From Phycisphaerales bacterium (GTDB lineage: Bacteria; Planctomycetota; Phycisphaerae; UBA1845; Fen-1342), in assembly GCA_003162245.1 (NCBI GenBank), contig PMMM01000122.1:1-42844 (forward strand): a DNA stretch of 42,844 nt, given 5' to 3'. The notes beneath the pieces are model-generated. The model was not told the DNA's origin. It searched no databases and was given only the letters and a program-made list of their open reading frames with translations. How positions within the stretch are numbered: position 1 is the first letter of the stretch; the number at the start of each line of letters is the position of its first letter. This document shows positions 10,290 to 42,213 of the stretch, piece by piece. The translations under genes and the position numbers were made by a program.

Positions 10290-10354
10290 GTAGCGTCAGG
10301 CCTCTGTGCCCGACGCCGAACTGCGCTGCGTCAACCGCCGAGGGCTGACGCTAC
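10290..10354. repeat. Inverted repeat over the nuoL stop codon
   Basis: The left arm GTAGCGTCAGGCC (10290-10302) matches the complement of the right arm GGCTGACGCTAC (10343-10354), with one bulged base. The right arm contains the TAG stop codon of nuoL. The roughly 40-nt middle part is itself partly self-complementary. The element fills almost the entire nuoL-nuoM spacer and could fold in the mRNA. It looks like a REP-type dispersed element. Confidence 0.6.
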
Positions 10355-12552
10355 ACAAACGCGATCCACAGCACCACGACCGCCACCCCGGTGGCCGCGA
10401 AGAGGATGTAATTCCGAATGCGGCCGACCTGCGGGCTGCGGACCAGGCCGCCGAGCGTCCAGGTGCCGCGGCCGACGCCGTTGACCATGCCGTCGACGAC
10501 GCCCTGGTCCACGATCATGCCACTGAACCAGGACAGCCGCTCGGTCACAAACGCGGACAGGTTCACCAGCCCGTCCACGACGAACTTGTCAAACGCGTAT
10601 GAGATTGCGTTCAGGGCCATCGTCCCGCCGATGAGCACGAAGCCGTACAGCTCGTCGAAGTAGAACTTGTGGACGAGCACCGTGTACGCCGGCTTCAGTG
10701 CGACGGCCAGCTTCTCGCCCACGGCCAGGCCCTTCCGGTAGATCAGCCAGGCGAGAACAAAACCGACCGCAAAGGCCAGCCCGACGCGCGTCGCGAGCGC
10801 CGCGTGTGCGCCGTGCGAGATCATCGTCGCGTGTGCCTCCGCCGCTTCCGCCGCTGCGCCGTCATAGGAAACCGTCAGGAACGGGTGCGGCGCAGCCGCG
10901 GCGACCAGCGGCCGAAACAGGTAGTAGCTCGACACGAACGTGCCGAGCGCGAGGACGACCAGGGGCACGTACATCAGCGGGCTTTCGTGGGCGTGCTCGT
11001 GCACGTGGTGATCCCGCGGCTTGCCCATAAATGTCAGCCACCAGCAGCGCATCATGTAGAAGGGCGTGACGTAGGCCATCAGCACGGGGATCCAGAAGAG
11101 CAGGGGGTTCAGGGTTCGGGGTTCAGGCCTCAGGGCCGCGGCCTCGGCATTGTGGATTCTGGATTTTGGATTTTGGATTTCGGCGCCGGGAGCGACTTCG
11201 TTCTCTCCGTGGTTCTCCCCGTACACGCGGTGCCACGCGACCGCGAGAATCTCGTCCTTGCTGAAGTACCCGCCGAGGCCGAACGGCGTGTGCCCCGGCA
11301 TCCAGACCGCCGGTATGCCCACGCCGGCGATGGCCAGGACACCGACGAGGAACGTGACCGCCGTCACGGGCATCTTGCGGATCAGCCCGCCCATCTTGCG
11401 CATGTCCTGCTCGTGGTGACAGCCCTCGATGACCTGGCCGGAGCCGAGGAACATGAGGGCCTTGAAAAATGCGTGCGCAAGCAGGTGGAACAGGGCCGCG
11501 ATCCACGCCCCGACGCCCATGCCCAGCATCATGTAGCCGAGCTGGCTGATCGTGGAGTACGCCAGCACCTTCTTGATGTCCGTCTGTACGATCGCAACCA
11601 GCGCCGCCAGCGTCAGCGTGATGCACCCGATGGTCGCGACGAACTGCTGCGCCTCCGGCGTGAGCAGCACGAAGATCCGCGCGGTCAAGTAAACGCCCGC
11701 GGCGACCATCGTGGCGGCGTGGATCAACGCGCTGACCGGCGTGGGGCCTTCCATCGCGTCCGGCAGCCACACGTGCAGTGGGAACTGGGCGCTTTTGCCG
11801 ATCGCGCCGCAGAACAGCAGCATCCCCATCCAGGTCGCCAGGCTCAGGCCGCAGAACGTCCGGCTGAACAGCGGCCCGCCGGCCATGAATTCATGGTGAA
11901 ACTTCTCCGCAGCCCCGGCCAGCGACAGGTCGCCCAGGAACAGGACGACCATGCCCAGCCCGATGATGAACCCGAAGTCGCCGACGCGGTTGGTGACGAA
12001 CGCCTTGATCCCCGCGTCGCTGGCGCTCTTCTTGTGGAAGTAGTAGCCGATCAGCAGGTACGAGCATACGCCCACCAGCTCCCACGCGATGAACAGCAGC
12101 AGCAGGCTGTCGGCGATGACCAGCAGCAACATGCTGAAGCCGAAGAGCGACAGGTACGTGAAGAAGCGGTGGAACTTGCTGACGCCGTCGATCTCGTCGC
12201 TGTGGCCGGCCATGTAGCCGACGCTGAAGACGAAGATCCAGGTCGAGACGAACGTGACCATGAAGAACATGATCAGCGTGAGGCTGTCGAGGTTGACGCC
12301 GAACTTGATTGGCATCCCACCGAGCGTGGCCCAGAGCACGGGGGCACTGCGGGCGGCGGCCCGGCCGGCCGCGTCCAGCCCCTGCCATTGCACCAGCGCG
12401 ACCATCGCCAGCACGCAACTGGCCGCCATTGCGAGCACCGCGACCCAGCCCGACGCCGGCTTGCCGAGCTTGCTGCCCACGAAGGCCAGCAGCACGAAGC
12501 TCGCCAGCGGAAGCAGGACGCCGGTGATCAACAGCAGCTCGATTGTCGACAT
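10351..12552 (-). CDS. nuoL: NADH-quinone oxidoreductase subunit L with an in-frame repeat insert
   Basis: A 733-residue antiporter-like subunit of complex I. The family core is intact: LFIAWELVGVCSYLLIG, FPLHVWLPDAMEGPTPVSALIHAATMVAAGVYL and ILAYSTISQLGYMMLG blocks, with a long C-terminal helix region as expected for NuoL. The ATG at 12552 (MSTIELLLITG) starts the first membrane helix; an earlier in-frame ATG lies in the spacer palindrome. At residues about 458-483, between two membrane helices, there is a hydrophilic insert of about 25 residues rich in N, P, K and R, encoded by two 7-bp repeat tracts (separate entry). The reading frame stays open through it, so the protein is probably functional. 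Confidence 0.95.
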   Translation of the reverse strand: MSTIELLLITGVLLPLASFVLLAFVGSKLGKPASGWVAVLAMAASCVLAMVALVQWQGLDAAGRAAARSAPVLWATLGGMPIKFGVNLDSLTLIMFFMVTFVSTWIFVFSVGYMAGHSDEIDGVSKFHRFFTYLSLFGFSMLLLVIADSLLLLFIAWELVGVCSYLLIGYYFHKKSASDAGIKAFVTNRVGDFGFIIGLGMVVLFLGDLSLAGAAEKFHHEFMAGGPLFSRTFCGLSLATWMGMLLFCGAIGKSAQFPLHVWLPDAMEGPTPVSALIHAATMVAAGVYLTARIFVLLTPEAQQFVATIGCITLTLAALVAIVQTDIKKVLAYSTISQLGYMMLGMGVGAWIAALFHLLAHAFFKALMFLGSGQVIEGCHHEQDMRKMGGLIRKMPVTAVTFLVGVLAIAGVGIPAVWMPGHTPFGLGGYFSKDEILAVAWHRVYGENHGENEVAPGAEIQNPKSRIHNAEAAALRPEPRTLNPLLFWIPVLMAYVTPFYMMRCWWLTFMGKPRDHHVHEHAHESPLMYVPLVVLALGTFVSSYYLFRPLVAAAAPHPFLTVSYDGAAAEAAEAHATMISHGAHAALATRVGLAFAVGFVLAWLIYRKGLAVGEKLAVALKPAYTVLVHKFYFDELYGFVLIGGTMALNAISYAFDKFVVDGLVNLSAFVTERLSWFSGMIVDQGVVDGMVNGVGRGTWTLGGLVRSPQVGRIRNYILFAATGVAVVVLWIAFV
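11105..11181 (-). repeat. Two 7-bp tandem repeat tracts inside nuoL
   Basis: On the plus strand, 11105-11132 holds four units of GGGTTCA (units 2 and 4 diverged), and 11154-11181 holds four units of GGATTTT (first and last with one change each). Three 7-bp units make 21 bp, so such tracts can stay in frame. Both tracts are translated as part of NuoL. They resemble the short tandemly repeated heptamers described in cyanobacteria; the kinship is inference. Confidence 0.8.
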
Positions 12553-12567
12553 ACGTCCCTTTGGTAG

Positions 12568-12586
12568 GGTGCGTCCTCGACGCACC
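12568..12586. repeat. Spacer palindrome nuoK-nuoL
   Basis: GGTGCGTC, loop CTC, GACGCACC: a perfect 8-bp stem with a 3-nt loop, 6 nt after the nuoK stop. It has no U-run. It is one of several short palindromes in the nuo spacers. Confidence 0.55.
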
Positions 12587-40596: not shown

Positions 40597-42213
40597 TCAG
40601 GGGCCTTGGAAAACGACCTCGAGAATATTCCCTTGCAAGTCAACTTTGGCGACTGCGCTGTTGCGTACGACACCACCGAAGGCGTTCTTGCCGCGAAACT
40701 TCGTGTAAACGATCAGATGGTCGCCTTTGTCTATGTAAGTGGTCTCGTCGTGTTGGTACGAATCGGGGTCGTTCATGCTCTTCTTAATGTATTCTGTGAG
40801 ACCCCTATGCGAGCCATCCCAACCGCTGAACTGCTTCTCGATCAGCTCCTCTCGCGCCTTGCGTGCGGCCTCGGCTTCCGCTGCCGCCCTCGCTTCGGCC
40901 GCCTTTATCCGTTCCTTGGCCTCCGCCGCTGCCTCCGCCGCTGCCTTCGCCTTCTCAACCCTTCTGCGTTCCTCGGCCTCGGCCGCCGCCTTCTGCTTCG
41001 CAGCCTCCGCCTTCTGCTTCGCGGCCTCCGCCTCCTGCCGCGCGGCTTCCGCTGCTTCCTGTTCCCGCTTCCTTATCTCTGCGCGCTTCGCAAGGGCGGC
41101 GTCAGTACTCGCGCGGGCGTTGGCGACGGCCTTACGGGTGAGGACCGGGTAGCCTAGATCGAGCGACGCGGGCGGCGCGCCGTAGGCCTTGAACGCGGCT
41201 AATTCGGCATCGGACAGCCGCACGAGCACGTCGAGCGCCCACGCCGGATCGTCGGAGTTTTTGATCGCCCCTTGCAGGGCTAGCGCAACGTCCCGATTCT
41301 GGGCGGCGCTGAGCTTGAGGGCTTCGTCGATGTCTTGCCGGGCTCTGGCAACGTTGGCGGCCGTCAGCGACGCCTTGGCCCTGTCCACAAGTCGGGTTAC
41401 TCGTGCGTTCGCGTCTACTTGCGCCCTTGCGCGCGCCGCTGCGAGGCGCGCGTCGGCCTCTACTTGGGCCTGTACTCGCGCCGCTTCGTCCGCCGCGAGT
41501 CGCTGGTCGGCGGCAACTTGTAGCTGTACTCGCGCTGCTTCATCCACCGCGGGTCGTTGGTCGGCGGCAATCTGTGGCTGCGCTCGCGCGCCTTCCTCGG
41601 CCGCTTTCTTGGCCGCCCGTTCGGCGGATGGCCGTTGCGCGATGTACCCGGCCGCAGCAAAACCCATCAGGGCGACCGCGACCAGGCTAAAGGTCGTCAA
41701 CTTGACCGTGCGCCATGTCGGCCTGTCCGTCGACACTCGCAAAAAATGACCAACACCCCGCCGCATGGGCCCGGTTCGATCGTCTGTGAGATACAAACTG
41801 ATGAGTACCGCAAGAACGACTCCGACGGTCAGTGTGAAACCGGGGAAAGACGGCGCGAGGAAGGCCGAGATGACGAGAAGCAGTCCAAACCAAAGCCGGG
41901 GCTTGGACGGCGCGATATTGATAGTGGGTTCACCCGGGTGCTGGCCCCGGTTCACATCTTGCGACGGCGCGACGGGCGTCACGATAGCGACTGCTGGCAT
42001 AGATTTCGGATCACACACCGCGTGTGCTTGGGCGAGCGGTGCGGGAGGCCTTGGCGGCCGCGATGCGACCTCCGGACTTGGGGCAGAGGGTATGAAGCGT
42101 TGGCCGCATACCGCGCAGGTCACGCTCTTCCCGAGCGATTCCGACTCGACGCGAAATTCGCGTCCGCAGGCTGGATTGGGACAGCGCGCCTGGATGTACG
42201 TGTCGGCCGGCAT
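40597..42213 (-). CDS. Zinc-ribbon, two-helix, coiled-coil protein with conserved C-terminal domain
   Basis: A 538-residue predicted membrane protein. The N-terminal zinc ribbon has Cys11-x4-Cys16 and Cys33-x2-Cys36 (the MJ0042-like CPxxACGREF type). A Pro-rich linker leads to membrane segments at about 107-142 (probably two) and 170-192. A long Ala/Glu/Lys/Gln-rich coiled coil follows (about 195-310 and 385-465), including an exact-length 18-residue repeat. The last 70 residues (FSGWDGSHRGLTEYI, NDPDSYQHDETTYIDKGD, KFRGKNAFGGVVRNSAVAKVD) resemble a small domain found at the ends of varied bacterial membrane proteins and lipoproteins. Its function is unknown. The ATG at 42213 starts the zinc ribbon. 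A promoter lies about 150 bp upstream. Confidence 0.85.
   Translation of the reverse strand: MPADTYIQARCPNPACGREFRVESESLGKSVTCAVCGQRFIPSAPSPEVASRPPRPPAPLAQAHAVCDPKSMPAVAIVTPVAPSQDVNRGQHPGEPTINIAPSKPRLWFGLLLVISAFLAPSFPGFTLTVGVVLAVLISLYLTDDRTGPMRRGVGHFLRVSTDRPTWRTVKLTTFSLVAVALMGFAAAGYIAQRPSAERAAKKAAEEGARAQPQIAADQRPAVDEAARVQLQVAADQRLAADEAARVQAQVEADARLAAARARAQVDANARVTRLVDRAKASLTAANVARARQDIDEALKLSAAQNRDVALALQGAIKNSDDPAWALDVLVRLSDAELAAFKAYGAPPASLDLGYPVLTRKAVANARASTDAALAKRAEIRKREQEAAEAARQEAEAAKQKAEAAKQKAAAEAEERRRVEKAKAAAEAAAEAKERIKAAEARAAAEAEAARKAREELIEKQFSGWDGSHRGLTEYIKKSMNDPDSYQHDETTYIDKGDHLIVYTKFRGKNAFGGVVRNSAVAKVDLQGNILEVVFQGP
41461..41568 (-). repeat. Two tandem 54-bp repeats in the coiled-coil gene
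   Basis: Two units encode AADQR-x-A-x-DEAARVQ-x-QV, 18 residues each, followed by a degenerate third. The 18-residue period gives an in-register helical extension, so copy-number change would lengthen the coil without breaking the frame. Confidence 0.75.

Follow-up and report, generated by a model that had tools for sequence, protein, structure and literature searches.

Two tandem tracts with units of seven bases lie side by side in the gene for subunit L of NADH-quinone oxidoreductase (nuoL), within the 42,844-nucleotide stretch of DNA that was analysed (the window). The product of this gene passed the cut-offs of two NCBIfam models (PRK06590, 604.9 bits against 556; TIGR01974, 574.5 against 407.5) and contains the Pfam domains Proton_antipo_M and Proton_antipo_N. 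The sequence-only reading had compared the tracts with short heptamer repeats of cyanobacterial genomes; the cyanobacterial STRR sequences are a bacterial heptamer repeat family. The host is not a cyanobacterium but a planctomycete of the class Phycisphaerae, as judged from the closest NuoL relatives: among named ones, these come from MAGs of uncultured Phycisphaerae (Planctomycetota), and the NuoL of an uncultured Phycisphaerales bacterium is 95% identical. Contig C169 of the same genome carries another NuoL-like gene, which has a short loop and is 49% identical across the matching part. Therefore, the copy with the tracts need not be essential, and its earlier description as such is doubtful.

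Table 1. Positions of nuoL and of the features in and around its repeat-derived loop (window coordinates).
Feature	Position	Strand	Details
nuoL, NADH-quinone oxidoreductase subunit L	10351-12585	-	start GTG 12585 or ATG 12552
Start of the next transmembrane helix (LLFWIP)	11086-11103	-	immediately follows the tract
Repeat-derived part of the variable NuoL loop	11104-11187	-	peptide GAEIQNPKSRIHNAEAAALRPEPRTLNP
GGGTTCA-type tract	11105-11127	+	GGGTTCA GGGTTCG GGGTTCA GG; coding strand TGAACCC CGAACCC TGAACCC; peptide PEPRTLNP
GGATTTT-type tract	11154-11181	+	GGATTCT GGATTTT GGATTTT GGATTTC; coding strand AAAATCC units; peptide IQNPKSRIHN
Upstream loop part, following the conserved SKDEIL motif	11188-11244	-	AVAWHRVYGENHGENEVAP

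Tandem Repeats Finder detected two arrays of period 7 in nuoL (11105–11135, 4.4 copies, 79% matches; 11149–11180, 4.6 copies, 92% matches) and listed no further period-7 array of at least four copies in the window. The first three GGGTTCA-type units (11105–11125, plus strand) are followed by GGCCTCAGGG, and the two tracts are separated by 26 bases. Both tracts are real and the reading frame runs through them without a stop. The insert GAEIQNPKSRIHNAEAAALRPEPRTLNP occupies residues 456–483 when counted from the ATG (467–494 from the GTG), against approximately 458–483 in the sequence-only reading, which was also right that it is polar and lies in a loop between membrane helices. The motifs conserved in NuoL are intact on either side, and the insertion site is just past the helix that bears the SKDEIL motif. 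By homology with E. coli NuoL, it is presumably the periplasmic loop that joins TM12 to TM13.

This loop tolerates very different lengths. Measured from SKDEILAV to the next conserved helix (AYVTPF), it ranges from 34 to 182 residues across relatives, in which its sequence is unrelated, polar, and often rich in His, Ala, and Gly. The alignment thus does not show an insert of fixed length, which the sequence-only reading had named as the mark of an old structural loop. In an AlphaFold model based on 23 homologues, pLDDT is below 50 at residues 447–477, flanked by helices at 427–444 and 484–508, and the loop that holds the insert is predicted to be disordered.

The two units differ in how they can be read. 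AAAATCC gives NPKSKIQ in all three frames without a stop, and its complement gives GFWILDF. Because 7 mod 3 is 1, any pure heptamer tract encodes the same heptapeptide, rotated, in every frame. A TGAACCC tract meets a stop whichever frame is read, and the one in nuoL escapes it because the in-frame unit is CGAACCC. Selection of CGAACCC for avoidance of the TGA stop was considered and rejected, since the same variant is present in a tract just past a stop codon (C31). It had been argued that a change by one unit would shift the frame and a change by three would not, and this arithmetic is correct.

The nuoL tracts are not due to chance, and the insert is not special: it is one case among a genome-wide repeat family that reaches several genes. 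We searched with a degenerate 23-mer covering three units of either kind (GGRTTYNGGRTTYNGGRTTYNGG, up to two mismatches) and used the reversed pattern as a control. There were 62 matches against 0 in the genome of the window, and 70 against 1 in a genome of the same genus (G298); neighbouring matches overlap, and these numbers therefore correspond to about 25–35 places, roughly 25 of them for the genome of the window. Of 294 genomes sampled across the phylum, 21 contain the exact GGATTTT pattern, while the reversed control gave zero in nearly all, with two exceptions. A 439-kb sample that had not been selected for tracts contained more tracts of periods 7 and 8 with other units; its three period-7 arrays, against two in a single simulated control, are too few to show a general excess. 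About 16 other loci were inspected by open reading frames and Pfam, with no formal gene calls. Three lie within known genes, two are pilin-like N-termini on C89 that likewise read through tracts, and the others have no family match spanning the tract.

The genomes compared are mostly MAGs, one per species, and include one close species pair, formed by our genome (G000) and G298. The NuoL loop of G298 has the identical length of 67 residues, and its tracts are recognisable but altered. DNA identity between the two species is 76% in the 84-base insert and 93% in the remainder of nuoL, although another 84-bp stretch of the gene is equally low; at third codon positions, identity is 71% inside and 85% outside. 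Sequence constraint is relaxed within the loop. Because the G298 insert is homologous and of the same length, though diverged, no change in unit number is seen. The ongoing expansion that had been envisaged was not observed: the lengths are exactly equal, there are many substitutions, and the tracts are common to other genera.

Among these other genera, the loop of G308 contains an AAAATCC tract only (IQNPKSKIQNA), and that of G311 contains, of the two kinds, only a TGAACCC tract, placed as in our genome at the junction that precedes LLFWIP. AAAATCC is thus found in our genome, G298, and G308, and TGAACCC in our genome, G311, and, eroded, G298; the loops of G295, G296, and G301 have neither. 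The reading frame is open in every genome that carries the nuoL tracts. A NuoL tree calculated without the loop places G311 outside the others and does not fix the position of G308; therefore, the tracts may be old and lost in some lineages, or may have been gained more than once. Misassembly is an unlikely source of the insert, since independent MAGs from further species and genera contain it as well. Beside its TGAACCC tract, the G311 loop (L163) also has an 8-base tandem tract, GTGGGAAC, which encodes HVGTWERGNVGT.

In-frame GGATTTT tracts were found in loops or linkers of three further genes, so that the arguments about frame are based on four genes in all. Glycerate kinase (C95; Pfam Gly_kinase, TIGR00045) has CPPTPLHYKGHTIPRAAKTLSGSGPLQSKIQNPKSKIGLRA in a loop that is short and free of tracts in G298, a difference of 114 bp. 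In UvrA (C147; assigned from its sequence and ABC domain), an AAAATCC tract encodes STDAPQSKIQNPKSKM before SHTAAAL. The same loop in G298 has NSELRIRNEGGGRIAHEQDAAAGSSFLIPNSQFPIP, a GAATTGG-type heptamer arranged as an inverted pair, with a net difference of 33 bp. The third is an AAA_25 ATPase (C236) with AANPKPKIQNPESS in a linker; the G298 linker has no tract but contains PPPSQGGVGGGS, and the net difference is 90 bp. All three length differences are multiples of three. AAAATCC is the sense strand in four of four in-gene tracts, which is the orientation of the polar peptide. PPPSQGGVGGGS is present in two unrelated G298 proteins, UvrA (L248) and the AAA_25 linker (L246), and is probably another dispersed coding repeat.

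Some tracts are lost or gained between the two species and others are retained. An intergenic difference of 90 bp on C203 carries a tract, and G298 has a clean empty site. At certain sites, a tract is replaced in the other species by one whose 7- or 8-base unit is unrelated. An inverted GGATTTT pair between groES and groEL (C93; L152:1490–1605) is, like some other tracts, conserved: it is nearly identical in G298 and is predicted to form a strong RNA hairpin (z −4.4 against shuffled sequences). Because certain loci are so strongly conserved, some copies may be functional.

Taken together, these observations make it probable that the nuoL insert consists of members of two heptamer families with dispersed copies, GGATTTT and GGGTTCA, which lie in frame in a disordered, length-tolerant loop and are tolerated there rather than kept as a selected switch. 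The insert peptide most likely has no specific function. The tracts would arise and spread by local duplication, and by being copied or inserted when DNA is repaired or recombined. Their survival in genes would depend on a net length that is a multiple of three, an orientation that yields the polar peptide (NPKSKIQ, not GFWILDF), and a site in a loop or linker. Short tandem repeats with units that are not multiples of three can thus be recruited into housekeeping proteins, because every frame of a stop-free heptamer reads as one and the same heptapeptide. Where closely related species have different tracts in one loop (UvrA), or one of them has none there (glycerate kinase), it can be tested directly how tracts are born, replaced, and tolerated.

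Neutral slippage alone leaves unexplained why exactly GGATTTT and GGGTTCA are so frequent and why they occur elsewhere in the phylum. A bolder extension, which we regard as unlikely, is that tandem tracts of 7 and 8 bases are written or copied into loops and gaps of the genome by a sequence-specific process of this lineage, with tract-for-tract replacement between species, heptamers being favoured in genes because of their frame-independent reading. If so, housekeeping proteins would receive a continual supply of ready-made polar linkers.

The tracts might instead be functional nucleic-acid elements, that is, candidate binding sites for a protein on DNA or RNA, or G-quadruplexes on the G-rich strand, which act wherever they lie and of which the nuoL copy is one. 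The recurrence of identical units at many loci, and in further families of the phylum, is consistent with this, as are the highly conserved intergenic copies and the well-folding groES-groEL pair. Among comparable heptamer families, some form G-quadruplexes in vitro (PMC4692102) and others adjoin start codons (PMC4679880). However, two close species differ in where the tracts lie and in which unit they have, and unrelated units can take over a site. The nuoL tracts are diverged in G298, and the RNA of the insert folds no better than shuffled sequences (z +1.15). We give this reading a low probability.

It is quite improbable that a small mobile element with defined ends, of the MITE or Rickettsia palindromic element (RPE) kind, carries the tract and transposes. 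The clean empty site on C203, the 114-bp in-frame difference in glycerate kinase, and the inverted tract pairs at certain loci would fit transposition. However, a short-word BLAST comparison of 18 tract loci found nothing shared beyond the tract, except for a repeat of approximately 21 bp at two loci and a weak two-copy motif. The terminal bases are not fixed; end bases CGATTTT...GGATTG were suspected by eye, and a stricter count did not support them. The nuoL tracts have neither an inverted pair nor a stable fold. The two-copy motif (GTGTGANNNTTGTAGTGC/GTGTGANNNTTGTAGTGCNNAGG) is found at C95:12744–12766 and C236:28362–28384, each approximately 70 bases from a heptamer tract. At C31:70291 (L143) and C63:15244 (L144), longer repeats built on GGGGTCGGCCGCTACAT adjoin heptamer tracts.

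A contingency switch, in which a change in unit number would turn NuoL on and off by frameshift, is very improbable. In its favour, seven is not divisible by three, and heptamers rank with the commonest long simple tandem repeats of bacterial genomes (Mrazek 2007, via PMC4679880). Against it, there are only three to four imperfect units per tract, the length is the same in G298, frames are open wherever the tracts occur, glycerate kinase, UvrA, and the AAA_25 gene differ from their G298 counterparts by net lengths that keep the frame, and the varying unit number with a change of frame among close relatives that marks phase-variable loci was not found between G000 and G298.

Coding repeat elements are best known in intracellular bacteria, and the heptamer tracts lie outside this group. 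The RPEs are dispersed and occur in frame in housekeeping genes that are not related to one another, usually where the protein is unstructured (Ogata et al. 2000, as outlined in PMC10969869 and PMC2996958). The same accounts describe them as palindromes of about 100–150 bp with a conserved peptide (PMC10969869, PMC2996958). Like RPEs, the heptamer tracts are inserted in frame in several unrelated genes (nuoL, glycerate kinase, uvrA, and the AAA_25 gene). Unlike them, they are 7-bp tandem tracts of three to five copies with no common element beyond the tract, and the nuoL insert lacks palindromy and a significant fold. The outcome is therefore comparable, but membership fails on palindromy and on the conserved element.

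Heptamer families have been described with the units GGGAATC in Xanthomonas and GGGGA(C/T)T in Nostoc (PMC4692102), and TAACTGA in Beggiatoaceae, Cyanobacteria, and Bacteroidetes (PMC4679880). Rehm et al. (PMC4692102) reported that tracts at corresponding sites of related species differ in length and sequence. The tracts described here share the period of 7, the small number of units, the dispersal, and the occupation of the same loci by sequences that vary between related species. The known families are mostly intergenic. The present units, GGATTTT and GGGTTCA, are different ones, their host belongs to the Phycisphaerae, and several copies are read as part of known genes; we found no relevant publication on tandem families of these two units. 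In surveys of long simple sequence repeats and prokaryotic satellites, heptamers are a generally over-represented bacterial class (Mrazek 2007, via PMC4679880; PMC6749651). Repeats in genes have mostly units that are multiples of three in such surveys, whereas several genes of the present genome contain heptamers in frame.

Two minor observations were made on repeats elsewhere. Further tandem repeats, with units of 12, 21, and 54 bp, are located at 40919–41052 and 41436–41589 of the window. Exact GGATTTT tracts of at least three units are present in 13 stretches of IMG/VR viral contigs (L293–L305).
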